This document shows positions 33,690 through 42,243 of a stretch of 64,000 nt of DNA, in pieces. Below the pieces are notes generated by a model that was given only the letters and a program-made list of their open reading frames with translations, did not search any database and was not told the DNA's origin. Location: the NCBI RefSeq assembly GCF_016793825.1, contig NZ_JAEULM010000019.1, positions 186,001 to 250,000 of the forward strand, in the 5' to 3' direction. Within the stretch, counting starts at the first letter, position 1. Every line of letters begins with the position of its first letter. The stretch comes from Sphingopyxis sp. (GTDB lineage Bacteria > Pseudomonadota > Alphaproteobacteria > Sphingomonadales > Sphingomonadaceae). A program made the position numbers and the translations under genes.

Positions 33690-34217
33690 CTAAGCCCGCG
33701 CCGAAGGCGGCCGTTCCTTGTCCCAGCGGGGCCGCGCGGCGTCCATTCCCGCGACGACCTTGTCCCAATAGGCCTCGGTTCGTCCCTGGAACTTCATGTC
33801 GAAATGCTCGACGGTGCGGAATTCCAGCACTTCGACGCCATCGGGTCCGGGCTTGTACGTATAGGGCACGTCGCTGCCGACGAAGAAGCCATCACCAGGT
33901 CCCAGCTCCTCGGTGCCAAGCTTCAGCGATCCCGCGATGATGTAATAGAGGCAGTCGGCGTCGTGACTGTGCAGCGGCAGGGCGAATCCGCTTTTGAACC
34001 AGGCATAGGTCAGGCTCATGTGCGGCAGTGCGAACAGCACCTTGGTCACATTCCCCTCGCCCACGCCCGCTCCGACCCAGCGGGCGATGCCAGCTTCGAC
34101 GATCGGCGTCAGCCCGGCGAGCGTCATCTTGTCGGTTTCGTCGAGGCCGGGCGCTTCGGCGCCCCGGAAAACCCGGAACGACGGCTGCGCTCCGGCCTTG
34201 TGGGCGGCTTCGGTCAT
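33690..34217 (-). CDS. Cupin-domain protein
   Basis: 175 residues with one small beta-barrel. The metal-site motif is FALPLHSHDADCLYYIIAGS, followed by GPGDGFFVGSDVPYTYKPG, the standard cupin 1 and 2 pair. It is predicted to bind a metal and a small acid or ester. The start at 34217 (MTEAAHKAGAQPSF) has GGGAGAGG upstream and lies 16 bases after the acyl-CoA dehydrogenase, so it is the last gene of that operon. Enzyme or binding protein is undecided. Confidence 0.83.
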   Translation of the reverse strand: MTEAAHKAGAQPSFRVFRGAEAPGLDETDKMTLAGLTPIVEAGIARWVGAGVGEGNVTKVLFALPHMSLTYAWFKSGFALPLHSHDADCLYYIIAGSLKLGTEELGPGDGFFVGSDVPYTYKPGPDGVEVLEFRTVEHFDMKFQGRTEAYWDKVVAGMDAARPRWDKERPPSARA

Positions 34218-34233
34218 GATCCTCTCCCTTCCG

Positions 34234-35529
34234 TCAAATCTTTCCGATCGTCTCCCTGCGCGGGCCAAGATAACCGAACAGATAGGCCCCGACCTTGCGC
34301 ATCTGGATTTCTTCCGCCCCCTCGGTGATCCGGTAGCGGCGGTGGTGGCGATAGATATGCTCGAACGGCTTGTGCCGCGAATAGCCGATGCCGCCATGGA
34401 CCTGCATCGCACGGTCGGCCGCTTCGCAGCATAGGCGGTTCGCCCAGTAATTGCACATGCTGACCTTGTCGGACAGCGTCCGCTCGATCTCCTTGTGCGG
34501 GGTGTTGTCCATGTCCCACGCGGTCTTGCGGATCAACAGGCGCAGCATTTCGGCCTGCGTCGCGAGCTCGACCAGCGGGAACTGGATCGCCTGATTCCTG
34601 GCCAGCGCCTCGCCGAACGGCTTGCGTGTCCGGGCATATCGGACGCTTTCCTCGATGCAGAAAACGGCCGCGCCGAGCGACGATGCGGCCTGGCGGATAC
34701 GGTTCTGGTGAACGAAGCTCTGCGCGATCGACAGCCCGCCGCCCTCCGGGCCCAGCCGCGCGTTGTCGGGCACCCACACGTCGGTGAACGTCATGCGCGG
34801 ATGATCGGTCGGCATGTTGAAGGTCCACATATATTCATCGACCGTCATACCCGGCGTCCCCGTCGGCACGAGCAGGCAGGTGATGCCCTTCGCATCGCCG
34901 TCCTCGCCGGCGGTGCGGCAGAAGGTTGCGCAATGCGTCGCGACATGCATGCCGGTGATCCACATCTTGCGGCCATTGATGAGCCAGCCGTCGACGCCGT
35001 CGCGCGTCTCGCGCACCGCGCGCGTTTCCATGTGCGTGGCGTCCGATCCGTGATCGGGTTCGGTCAAGCCAAAGGCGGTCCGGCGCTTGCCCTCGAACCC
35101 GCCGAGGATGAATTCCTGCTTCTGCTCCTCGCTCGTCGCGAATTGCTCGAACATCTCGACGAAGGGGAAATTGCCGACGATGCTGTGTTCGTTCTGCAGG
35201 TCGTTGTGGAGGCCAAGTCCCTTGGCGGCGAAATGTTCGCGGATCACCGCCATCCACAGGTTCGATCCGTCCTTGCCGCCATATTTCTTCGGCGCAGAGA
35301 AACGCCAATGGCCCGCCGCATCGGCCTTGCGCGTCGCCTGCCGCAGCAATTGTTCCCACTCGTGGCGCGGCAGGCCCTGATTGTCCCAGTCGGTGCGCGC
35401 ATGTTCGCGGCGATGGTCAAAGAAGCGGATGTTGTCGTCGGCCAGCTCCAGCGGCTTGATCTCGGCTTCGATGAAAGCATCGAGTTCCTCCAGATAGGCC
35501 TGCAAGTCGGCCGGCATCGCAAAATCCAT
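34234..35529 (-). CDS. Acyl-CoA dehydrogenase, ACAD10/11 (LvaC)-like
   Basis: 431 residues, FAD-dependent. It has the family's GLTEPDHGSDATHMETRA flavin loop, the AQSFVHQNRIRQAASSLGAA helix, and the ITEGAEEIQMRKVGAYLFG C-terminal block. The length and the KKYGGKDGSNLWMAVIREHF region recall the ACAD10/11 and LvaC group, which acts on 4-phospho- or 4-hydroxyacyl-CoA. This subgroup call is an inference from the fused kinase 20 bases upstream. ATG at 35529; electrons would go to EtfAB. Confidence 0.88.
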   Translation of the reverse strand: MDFAMPADLQAYLEELDAFIEAEIKPLELADDNIRFFDHRREHARTDWDNQGLPRHEWEQLLRQATRKADAAGHWRFSAPKKYGGKDGSNLWMAVIREHFAAKGLGLHNDLQNEHSIVGNFPFVEMFEQFATSEEQKQEFILGGFEGKRRTAFGLTEPDHGSDATHMETRAVRETRDGVDGWLINGRKMWITGMHVATHCATFCRTAGEDGDAKGITCLLVPTGTPGMTVDEYMWTFNMPTDHPRMTFTDVWVPDNARLGPEGGGLSIAQSFVHQNRIRQAASSLGAAVFCIEESVRYARTRKPFGEALARNQAIQFPLVELATQAEMLRLLIRKTAWDMDNTPHKEIERTLSDKVSMCNYWANRLCCEAADRAMQVHGGIGYSRHKPFEHIYRHHRRYRITEGAEEIQMRKVGAYLFGYLGPRRETIGKI

Positions 35530-35549
35530 CGTCTCTCTCCCGTTATTCT

Positions 35550-36893
35550 CTATCCGTTCCAGGCCGCACGCGCCGCGGCGAGCGCGGCATATTTGGGGCT
35601 GTCGATCGCGCATTTGTCGAGCGCGGCGCGGCGCAGCCTCGCCAGCAGGCCGGGTTCGGCCAACGTCGTCTCGCCCGCCAGCAACGCGGTCGCCAATGCC
35701 TTGTCCTCGGCGCACACACCGGCATCCAGGTCGCGCAGCACGATGCCCAGCGCGTTCATCGCGACCACCGCCTCGAACTTCGCATGTCCTTCGGCGGTCT
35801 GCTTGATCGCGCCTTCGATCCAGTCGCGCACCGCCTGCACCATCTCGCGGTTGGTCGGCTCGCCAACCGGAGCGGAGGGCAAGGCGGGAGGCGCCGACAG
35901 TGCCCTCGCCTGCTCTTCCGCCGGCGCTTCTTCACCCAGGAGCCCGATCAGGTCGAGTTCCTGCTCGGCGGTTCGCCGCCCGACAACGACGCGCTCGACC
36001 GTCGCATCCGCGCCGCTGCGCCACGCCTGCCCCATCTGCAAGCAGCCAAGCGCCCACCAGAGGGTGCGATAGACGAGCCAGAACCGGAAGCGGGTGCGAT
36101 CGACCTTGCCGCCGCCTGCCGCCTCATAGGCCGCAAAATAATCCTCGAGACTGCCGACCCCGAATGCAGGCCGGTCGAGCTGGCCAAAGCGCCACACCGT
36201 CATGCAGCCAAAGGCGATATCCTCGTGCGCGTCGCCGAGATGCGCCAGTTCCCAGTCAAGCACCGCGGCGAGTCCATCTGCACCCACCATCACATTGCCC
36301 ATCCGGTAATCGCCATGGACCAGCACGGGTTCGGCGGCCGCGGGCAGATGATCCTCGCACCAGCGGATCGCCAGCGCGATGGCCGGACGGTCGCCGCCAT
36401 AAGACAGAAAACGTGCCTTGAGCTCGGCGAGTGCGTCGGCCGTGTCCATCACCGGGATCGCATCGGGAATCGTCGCGCGCGGGATCGCATGGATGCGCGC
36501 CAGTTCGCGTCCGAGATCGGCCAGCAGCGACGGCGGAGGTGCGGCCAATATCCTCGCAGGGTTCACCTCGGCGACGACGCGCCGCATCACATAGCCGGTG
36601 CCGAGCCCATCGCCATCGGTCAGGACGCCGACGACCTCGGGCGCCTTCACCCCCGCCTCATGCGCCGCGGCGACCAGCGCCGCTTCGTCCGCATGGCTAT
36701 AGGGCCGGCCCTCCATATATTCTGCCGAGGGGGCGCGGCGCAGCACATAGCCGTTCGAGCCATCGGGGCCCGCCCAGTCGAACGCCCAGCTTTCCATGTT
36801 CGCGCCGCCCGACAGGCGACCAAGACCGGCAAGCGCGCCCGGGCCGGCGATGCGGGTCATGACGGCGGACAGGGGCAGGCTAAGCTCGGTCAT
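35550..36893 (-). CDS. APH-type acyl-CoA kinase fused to a DUF6285 (LvaB)-like domain
   Basis: 447 residues. Residues 1-320 are an aminoglycoside-phosphotransferase-type kinase with VLVHGDYRMGNVMVGADG (His193-Gly-Asp and Asn200) and AAVLDWELAHLGD. A Pro/Ala linker follows, and residues 346-447 form a second helical domain (REMVQAVRDWIEGAIKQ, RRAALDKCAIDSPKYAAL) that fits the DUF6285 pattern. In Pseudomonas putida the kinase LvaA and the small protein LvaB are separate and together phosphorylate 4-hydroxyvaleryl-CoA. Here they appear fused, and an LvaC-like dehydrogenase follows. No Shine-Dalgarno is seen before the ATG. Confidence 0.8.
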   Translation of the reverse strand: MTELSLPLSAVMTRIAGPGALAGLGRLSGGANMESWAFDWAGPDGSNGYVLRRAPSAEYMEGRPYSHADEAALVAAAHEAGVKAPEVVGVLTDGDGLGTGYVMRRVVAEVNPARILAAPPPSLLADLGRELARIHAIPRATIPDAIPVMDTADALAELKARFLSYGGDRPAIALAIRWCEDHLPAAAEPVLVHGDYRMGNVMVGADGLAAVLDWELAHLGDAHEDIAFGCMTVWRFGQLDRPAFGVGSLEDYFAAYEAAGGGKVDRTRFRFWLVYRTLWWALGCLQMGQAWRSGADATVERVVVGRRTAEQELDLIGLLGEEAPAEEQARALSAPPALPSAPVGEPTNREMVQAVRDWIEGAIKQTAEGHAKFEAVVAMNALGIVLRDLDAGVCAEDKALATALLAGETTLAEPGLLARLRRAALDKCAIDSPKYAALAAARAAWNG

Positions 36894-36912
36894 GGGGGCA
36901 TAGTGCTTGCAG

Positions 36913-36928
36913 TTTACGTAAGCGGCAA
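36913..36928 (-). promoter_or_regulatory. Candidate operator TTTACGTAAGCGGCAA
   Basis: It lies 20 bases upstream of the kinase ATG. The left half (TTTACGT) matches the stronger site at 42244-42259 before etfB. The right half is degenerate, so it is a weaker candidate for the same regulator. No regulator gene is present in the window. Confidence 0.45.
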
Positions 36929-40518: not shown

Positions 40519-41448
40519 TTAGATCTTGCCGGTCAGCTCCGGAACGGCGTTGAACAGATCGGCGACGAGGCCGAAGTCGGCGACCTGGAAGATCGGGGCG
40601 TCCTCGTCCTTGTTGATCGCGACGATCGTCTTCGAATCCTTCATGCCGGCGAGGTGCTGGATCGCGCCCGAGATGCCGATCGCGAAATACACTTCCGGCG
40701 CGACGATCTTGCCGGTCTGGCCGACCTGATAGTCGTTGGGAACATAGCCCGCGTCGACCGCGGCGCGGCTGGCGCCGAGCGCGGCGCCGAGCTTGTCGGC
40801 GAGCGGGACGATCACTTCCTGATATTTCTCGCTCGACCCCAGCGCGCGGCCACCCGACACGATGATCTTGGCCGAGGTCAGCTCGGGACGGTCCTGCTTG
40901 GCGATTTCGGCACCAACGAAGCTCGAGATGCCGGCGTCGCCGCCAGCCGAAACGGCTTCAACAGTGCCCGAACCGCCGGTGCTGGCAGCCTTTTCGAAGG
41001 CGGTGCCGCGAATGGTCAGGACCAGCTTCGCATCCGAGCTTTCGACGGTCGCAATCGCGTTGCCGGCGTAGATCGGGCGGGTGAAGGTCTTCGGACCCTC
41101 GACCGACAGGATTTCGCTGATCTGCATCACGTCGAGCAGGGCAGCGACGCGCGGCGCGATATTCTTGCCGGTGGTGGTCGCAGGCGCAACGAACGCATCG
41201 TGGCTCGCCATCAGCTCGGCGACGAGCGGCGCGATATTCTCGGGCAGGTTGTGACCGAAGGCGGCGTTGTCGGCGACATGCACCTTCTGCACACCGGCGA
41301 TCCCGGCGGCAGCCTTCGCAACGCCATCGACGCCGGAACCGGCAACGAGCAGATGGACTTCGCCGAGCTTCGAGGCGGCGGTCACCGCGGCGAGCGTGGC
41401 ATCCTTGACGGCGCTGCCGTCATGTTCGACCCAAACGAGCGTTTTCAT
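40519..41448 (-). CDS. etfA: Electron transfer flavoprotein alpha subunit
   Basis: 309 residues. EtfAB carries electrons from acyl-CoA dehydrogenases to the quinone pool through EtfQO. The FAD site lies in [40 protein letters not shown] and [20 protein letters not shown]. It overlaps etfB by 4 bases (ATGA). It ends at the terminator at 40466. It should serve the dehydrogenase at 34234 among others. Confidence 0.96.
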
Positions 41449-42194
41449 GAATGCACTCCCATCGCCTTCAGCTTGGCAACCAGTTCATCGACATCGGCGA
41501 CCTTGACGCCGGCCGAGCGGACGGGCGGTTCCGAGACCTTGACCGTCTTGACGCGCGGGGCCGTGTCGACGCCGTAGTCGGCGGGCGACTTGGTATCGAG
41601 CGGCTTCGACTTCGCCTTCATGATGTTCGGCAGCGAGGCATAGCGCGGCTCGTTCAGGCGAAGGTCGGTGGTGACGATCGCGGGAAGCTTCAGCTTCACC
41701 GTTTCGAGACCGCCGTCGACTTCGCGGGTCACGCTGACATGGTCGCCCTCCACGTTCACCGCGCTGGCAAAAGTGCCCTGCGGCCAGCCGGTCAGCGCAG
41801 CGAGCATCTGGCCGGTCTGGTTGTTGTCGCCGTCGATCGCCTGCTTGCCGAGGATCACGAGACCCGGCGCTTCGGCGTCGGCAATCGCCTTGAAGATCTT
41901 GGCGAGCGCCAGCGGCTCGACCTCATCGTCGGTCTGCACCAGGATCGCACGGTCGGCGCCCATCGCGAGCGCGGTGCGCAGCGCTTCCTGCGCCTTCGCC
42001 GGGCCGACGGACACGGCAACGATCTCGGTCGCGACGCCCTTTTCCTTCAGGCGGATCGCTTCTTCGATACCGATCTCGTCGAACGGGTTCATCGACATCT
42101 TCACATTGGCCAGGTCAACGCCCGTGCCGTCGGACTTCACCCGAGGCTTCACGTTGTAATCGAGCACCCGCTTCACGGGGACGAGGATTTTCAT
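41445..42194 (-). CDS. etfB: Electron transfer flavoprotein beta subunit
   Basis: 249 residues, the partner of EtfA. It opens with [20 protein letters not shown] and contains [18 protein letters not shown] and [19 protein letters not shown], all diagnostic. The ATG at 42194 has AGGAGC upstream; the frame extends 33 bases further, but this start is the family norm. A TTTACGT-type operator lies at 42244-42259, and sucC ends 108 bases upstream. Confidence 0.96.
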
Positions 42195-42243
42195 GGCTTT
42201 AAAAGCTCCTCTCAACAAATTGTGCACTGCGTCATAGTTGCGG

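Follow-up and report, generated by a model that had tools for sequence, protein, structure and literature searches.

A kinase-DUF6285 fusion and a glutamate-type acyl-CoA dehydrogenase form a conserved two-gene unit in Sphingopyxis and its relatives

A kinase-DUF6285 fusion and its partner gene

The stretch of DNA analysed here, which we call the window, comprises 64,000 nucleotides from a Sphingopyxis species (contig NZ_JAEULM010000019.1, positions 186,001 to 250,000), a bacterium dwelling in soil and water. It encodes an APH-type kinase fused to a DUF6285 domain, followed by genes for an acyl-CoA dehydrogenase (ACAD) and a cupin-like protein (Table 1). Hydroxyl groups away from C3 block beta-oxidation, and the kinase bypass that has been described around this block uses a flavoenzyme of the LvaC/ACAD10-11 type. 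The unit in the window keeps the kinase module and a partner domain, but combines them with a different class of flavoenzyme. Neither DUF6285 by name nor this gene set in Sphingopyxis was found in the literature searched.

Table 1. Position of the genes and sequence features discussed in the text (window coordinates)
Feature	Coordinates	Strand	Basis or remark
Fused APH-type kinase and DUF6285 protein, 447 aa	35550..36893	(-)	One open frame, Pfam, AlphaFold2
Catalytic loop HGDYRMGN, fusion residues 193-200	36294..36317	(-)	D195/N200 match ACAD11 D220/N225
DUF6285 domain (PF19802 match, residues 366-435)	35589..35798	(-)	Modelled helices 348-445
ACAD, Glu-type class, 431 aa	34234..35529	(-)	Not of the LvaC/ACAD10-11 type
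ACAD pocket helix FVHQNRIRQAAS	34681..34716	(-)	F272, Q280, S283 in place of ACAD11 R626, H634, R637
Glu403 of the ACAD	34321..34323	(-)	Aligned with catalytic Asp753 of ACAD11
Cupin-like protein, 175 aa	33690..34217	(-)	Accessory gene, outside the conserved unit
Presumed electron-transfer flavoprotein alpha and beta genes	40519-42227	(-)	Sequence resemblance; ~3.6 kb upstream of the fusion

A sequence-only reading of the locus had proposed that an APH kinase is joined here to a C-terminal domain of the DUF6285 type, and this proved correct. Both parts lie in one frame, with the APH domain scoring 110.2 bits over residues 44-257 and PF19802 scoring 45.2 bits against a gathering cut-off of 28.1 (Pfam); fused relatives reach DUF6285 scores of 78.5 bits (L045) and 44.5 bits (L051). 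The DUF6285 match of the fusion consists of two stretches, residues 366-393 and 397-435, and the part of the profile that is absent between them is a deletion visible in the alignment. The HGDYRMGN motif named in that reading is also present, as are the catalytic residues D195, N200 and D213 (the kinase Asp and Asn and the Asp of the DWE motif), and alignment A1, with its 36 rows, shows no variation at H193, G194, D195, R197, G199 or N200. AlphaFold2 modelled the fusion with a mean predicted local distance difference test score (pLDDT) of 92.5, a predicted template modelling score (pTM) of 0.91 and a helical C-terminal part. DUF6285 modelled alone (pTM 0.52) gave no PDB fold match at E 0.001, the best having an E value of 4.6. 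No second DUF6285 was found in the 3.86 Mb genome. Pfam recognises ACAD domains in the product of the second gene, which starts 20 nt after the fusion and is separated from the cupin-like gene by 16 nt; a purine-rich stretch precedes the ATG of each of these two genes.

Relatives of the fusion were found at 1e-20 in 68 of 149 Sphingomonadaceae genomes. Within these 149 genomes, 41 matches extend beyond fusion residue 420, 38 of them without an internal stop. The fusion protein matches 67 named loci, 46 of them at 70% identity or more, and 41 of those 46 belong to Sphingopyxis. When 20 family loci with kinase identities of 33-79% were sampled from these matches, the match covered the fusion in all of them and an ACAD of 65-95% identity adjoined it in 18. 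Named loci with a window-type match (at least 56% identity) have the ACAD downstream, at 80% identity or more, in 44 of 48 cases; of the other four, three are truncated at the end of a contig and the last has a kinase fragment only. Where the gap between fusion and ACAD was measured, it was at most 30 nt in 44 of 60 loci, 31-200 nt in nine and larger in seven. Because its relatives are fused over the same span, the fusion is genuine, which rules out both a peculiarity of one sequence and a frameshift artefact. The conserved unit consists of two genes, the kinase-DUF6285 fusion and the ACAD.

Across the phylum, DUF6285 was found in 26 of 299 sampled genomes, 22 of them outside Sphingomonadaceae. 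We fetched 16 of these 22 loci, with 7-7.5 kb each, and a kinase gene adjoins the DUF6285 match in every one. Five (L100, L101, L102, L106 and L115) carry an ACAD 72-76% identical to that of the window beside separate kinase and DUF6285 genes, and five more carry another ACAD of 27-31% identity. In one locus within Sphingomonadaceae (L116) the three genes for kinase, DUF6285 and ACAD are still unfused, and descent from such a trio is the simplest reading of the fusion.

The two genes could have been inherited together without serving one pathway, the kinase acting on some other small molecule and the ACAD on ordinary beta-oxidation substrates. Variable flanks and several DUF6285 kinases without an ACAD neighbour would suit such an arrangement. 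We nonetheless judge it improbable, given that the pairing of kinase and ACAD persists from 84% down to 33% kinase identity and recurs in Alphaproteobacteria, Nocardia and haloarchaea (in the last with a different small gene and one divergent arrangement).

The dehydrogenase class and the kinase branch

LvaA, LvaB and LvaC of Pseudomonas putida KT2440 likewise comprise a kinase, a small partner and an ACAD. In mammalian ACAD10 and ACAD11, an APH-type kinase with catalytic Asp and Asn also works with an ACAD, but there the two are fused to each other, and the available parts of the descriptions give no DUF6285. By position alone, LvaB might be likened to the fused C-terminal DUF6285 domain of the window. 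ACADs in general carry a catalytic Glu where ACAD11 has D753. According to the available parts of the published accounts, LvaB is a 12 kDa protein that interacts with LvaA, both being required for growth on levulinate (PMC6692424); LvaC is 62% identical to the dehydrogenase domain of ACAD10 and has the same catalytic Asp and pocket (PMC11342911, PMC12440821); and in ACAD11 the 4-phosphate is held by R626, H634 and R637, with D753 as the catalytic residue (PMC12440821). The window ACAD is of a different class from LvaC, and none of the ACAD11 residues R86, R176, R626, H634, R637 and D753 is kept in the window proteins.

This difference extends to the whole class. A quick alignment was made of the 152 distinct ACADs that the fetched loci supplied, leaving out duplicates and matches with fewer than 330 aligned residues; ACADs of the window class (50% cut-off) and of a class termed A3 (38% cut-off) were chosen by similarity and not by motif. 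The first two pocket positions are F and Q in 79/79 window-class ACADs, the third is S in 77/79, and the catalytic residue is Glu in all 79. Class A3 ACADs keep R626, H634, R637 and Asp753 in 24/24. A third group of 38 ACADs (the RIHHCMR class) was picked by the string HHCMR, which makes H634 and R637 a product of that choice and leaves R626 and Asp753 as the only independent residues; both of the latter are present in 38/38. Of the other 11 aligned ACADs, two are LvaC-like and nine are mixed; R, H, R and D stand at the four positions in both LvaC-like proteins and in four of the mixed ones. Class A3 mostly accompanies DUF6285 kinases, in Thermus, Azospirillum and genomes taken as Pseudomonas (an assignment that, for two genera of the sampled genomes, comes from an OprF match); among its 24 loci, two (L244 and L348) lack a DUF6285 hit and a third (L347) has a Pfam score below the cut-off. 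These A3 units thus have the same DUF6285 partner as the window unit and lie on the same side of the kinase tree; unlike the window ACAD, theirs keeps the LvaC pocket and Asp.

The phylogeny gave the same division. A quick FastTree tree of 108 ACADs, including 20 of the 79 window-class proteins in addition to the window's own, placed the window class in one clade (21/21, support 1.0). All RIHHCMR and A3 ACADs, with six others, formed a separate clade (support 1.0) that leaves the window class outside; in this tree the RIHHCMR type stands in for ACAD10/11 and LvaC, which are themselves absent from it. Because none of the four tested ACAD11 residues is kept and the protein falls outside this clade, the window ACAD is not LvaC-like, and we excluded it as an LvaC orthologue. 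The sequence-only reading had called it ACAD10/11-like or LvaC-like, an assignment that has to be given up. The Lva-type layout of kinase, partner and ACAD that it described is matched by the separate kinase, DUF6285 and ACAD genes of other bacteria, with the reservation that the ACAD is not LvaC-like.

These data bear directly on whether the unit works exactly as LvaABC does, converting 4-hydroxyacyl-CoA into 2-enoyl-CoA in a redox-neutral manner through a 4-phospho intermediate, with an ACAD whose phosphate pocket is a different and so far unrecognised one. The gene order is that of the Lva scheme as given in the available parts of its descriptions (PMC6692424, PMC9399607), and DUF6285 kinases do pair with full-pocket A3 ACADs. 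The near-invariant F, Q, S and Glu of the window class and its position in a clade of its own, outside the LvaC-type and A3 proteins, argue the other way, as do three RIHHCMR ACADs elsewhere in the genome (C15, C35 and C43), all with R626 and D753, one of which (C35) directly follows an ACAD10/11-type kinase. We think this explanation quite unlikely. As the genome has LvaC-type ACADs elsewhere, those are the better candidates if the known 4-hydroxyacyl-CoA route runs in this bacterium. The RIHHCMR DNA pattern occurs in 85 of the 299 phylum genomes, and a control with the pattern read backwards gave 0 among the matches listed.

The three RIHHCMR ACADs of the Sphingopyxis genome are those of loci L151 (4632-7121), L150 and L152; besides the one that follows its kinase, another lies just before a long frame with an ACAD10/11-type kinase domain. 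In six genomes of one alphaproteobacterial genus (L153-L158), a RIHHCMR ACAD lies ~2-7 kb from a split unit of kinase, DUF6285 and window-class ACAD, which places the two ACAD classes in the same region.

The kinase also differs from its ACAD10/11 counterparts. R86 and R176 of the ACAD11 kinase are modelled as holding CoA, according to the available part of the structural account (PMC12440821), and we mapped the ACAD11 kinase positions via PDB 8v3v. In the window branch, 84/84 kinases have the residues equivalent to D220, N225 and the DWE Asp, and 0/84 have R86, whose position is Asp69 in the window kinase; the R176 position of that kinase is not Arg either. The R176 column is a gap in 84/84, and was Arg in one of nine after a realignment that took in Pseudomonas-type kinases with HRD, which are outside the 84-kinase set. 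Another 20 DUF6285-linked kinases all keep the catalytic Asp, Asn and DWE Asp and have R86 in 0/20 and R176 in 1/20; R86 is missing in 104/104 DUF6285-linked kinases. Both arginines are kept in 27/27 ACAD10/11-type kinases.

The distribution of DUF6285 follows this division. We found a DUF6285 hit in the loci of 84/84 window-branch kinases and in 2/27 loci of ACAD10/11-type kinases (L105 and L187), both of which also have a window-branch-like kinase beside DUF6285. A DUF6285 profile built from 39 seeds gave no hit at E 0.1 in 34 loci that had been picked because they hold a RIHHCMR ACAD or an ACAD10/11-type kinase. A quick tree of 72 kinases, 14 of them from the window branch with the window kinase among these, separated the window branch, the 20 further kinases and five similar ones from the ACAD10/11 type with a FastTree support of 0.99; a haloarchaeal pair was weakly placed (node 0.618). 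Together, the locus counts and the branch split indicate that DUF6285 goes with kinases lacking the arginine pair. The kinase was correctly described from the outset as APH-type with the HGDYRMGN motif, but it belongs to a DUF6285-linked branch without the two CoA arginines and not to the ACAD10/11 one.

A proposed route for hydroxy acids

In Foldseek searches, the closest fold to the model of the fusion was the 25-hydroxysteroid kinase (9fsg and 9ft5, 21% identity; E 9.9e-12 for 9fsg), the source organism of 9fsg being presumably Sterolibacterium denitrificans. The kinase might accordingly phosphorylate a tertiary alcohol in the side chain of an isoprenoid or steroid and so enable elimination of phosphate, with the ACAD taking part in later beta-oxidation of the branched chain. 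Both L160 and L187 have proteins of CoA-transferase family III close to their DUF6285 units, and this Pfam family, which also takes in alpha-methylacyl-CoA racemases, would fit such a route; the family is a broad one, however, and the L187 unit has no window-class ACAD. The fold match is of low identity, and the model matches 131 PDB chains at E <=0.001, those among the matches listed all being APH-type kinases. As far as the available part of its description goes (PMC8449060), the S. denitrificans enzyme phosphorylates tertiary alcohols and has a free steroid as substrate, with no mention of DUF6285, and the lyase gene is reported as unknown. We consider this explanation unlikely.

The reading that we prefer, and to which we give somewhat less than an even chance, is a variant of the Lva route in which a hydroxyacyl-CoA kinase feeds ordinary dehydrogenation linked to the electron-transfer flavoprotein (ETF). 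Acids probably lose their hydroxyl groups in this bacterium by a pathway akin to the known one for 4-hydroxy fatty acids but distinct from it. In the scheme that we infer, the fusion kinase would phosphorylate the hydroxyl of a hydroxy acid, probably as its CoA thioester, at or beyond C4. DUF6285 may take over recognition of the substrate or CoA, the role attributed to the two arginines in ACAD10/11-type kinases; the fusion offers a single protein on which this role is directly testable by cutting the domain off. With its catalytic Glu, the ACAD would then dehydrogenate the alpha,beta bond in the usual flavin- and ETF-linked way, turning the C4 phosphate into a vinylogous (allylic) leaving group. 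Phosphate would be lost, the dienoyl-CoA would enter beta-oxidation and the electrons would be lost to ETF. The same first oxidation is proposed in the ACAD10/11 scheme, in which the flavin then returns the electrons to the substrate (PMC11342911, available part). This return is ascribed to ACADs that have a phosphate pocket and Asp, LvaC among them.

Several observations weigh against this ETF-linked variant. Since the residues that hold the 4-phosphate are gone, the ACAD may never meet a phosphorylated substrate. CoA as a part of the substrate is our inference, and the closest fold is that of a kinase of free 25-hydroxysteroids; the CoA role of R86 and R176 itself rests on modelling, and the status of R176 depends on the alignment. 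The pairing has exceptions, with two of the 20 sampled family loci lacking the ACAD and six of the 16 fetched loci outside the family showing no ACAD match in their 7-7.5 kb. Finally, the wider neighbourhood varies within Sphingomonadaceae and offers no pathway context. The sequence-only reading had suggested a compact operon for 4-hydroxyacyl-CoA or lactone degradation; a scan of ten proteins around the unit revealed no short-chain dehydrogenase/reductase (LvaD-type), CoA ligase (LvaE-type) or lactonase, and gave that suggestion no support.

A broader and more speculative possibility, which we think rather unlikely, is that hydroxyacyl kinases have a second lineage of independent standing, that of the DUF6285 kinases, where the job of the CoA-reading arginines has passed to a small helical protein, present here as a fused domain. 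Within this lineage, one branch would have exchanged an LvaC-type for a Glu-type ACAD, and would eliminate phosphate in a net oxidation linked to ETF, with a dienoyl compound as the product. We know of no pathway that uses such an elimination.

Related units and neighbouring genes

Window-class ACADs were found in Alphaproteobacteria, Nocardia, haloarchaea and one genome taken as Pseudomonas (L189). On a Sulfitobacter pontiacus plasmid, the order is CoA ligase, kinase, DUF6285, ACAD, two enoyl-CoA hydratases, thiolase and TRAP (tripartite ATP-independent periplasmic) transporter, a run that fits acid uptake and CoA-dependent breakdown. Nocardia farcinica has DUF6285 (50.2 bits), kinase and ACAD (65% identity), in this order. 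On three haloarchaeal plasmids (L290-L292) the ACAD (56-58%) adjoins a kinase and a small protein, which lies in the place expected for DUF6285 and is a possible analogue of it; Pfam does not assign the 159 aa protein of L290 to DUF6285. Searches for an lva operon of the P. putida type identified none and gave other pairs of kinase and ACAD, with DUF6285 in the case of A3 ACADs and without it in that of RIHHCMR ACADs. Fourteen further pairs in genomes taken as Pseudomonas (L363-L376), whose ACAD has RLGGGR[VI]HHAMR, showed no credible DUF6285 hit (best E 0.096).

Two sets of neighbouring genes were considered as further members of the window unit and rejected. The sequence-only reading had correctly noted that a cupin follows the ACAD, in so far as a cupin-like gene does; its three Pfam hits, however, are all under their cut-offs, and it is absent from most relatives, with no match at 1e-5 in the 20 sampled family loci and presence in 4/48 named loci, and it is not a core part. 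The genes that we take to encode ETF alpha and beta matched in the fetched stretch of only one of the 20 family loci (L033, from the same genus).

Class A3 units may in some cases have a fourth member. In Thermus thermophilus HB8 (pTT27, L186) and on a plasmid of Azospirillum sp. B510 (L188), a gene for a histidine phosphatase comes after those for ACAD, kinase and DUF6285, the Thermus protein being confirmed as such by Pfam. The available part of the account of the P. citronellolis lva cluster reports no lvaB in the region analysed and does report a phosphatase gene, which the Thermus and Azospirillum phosphatase recalls.

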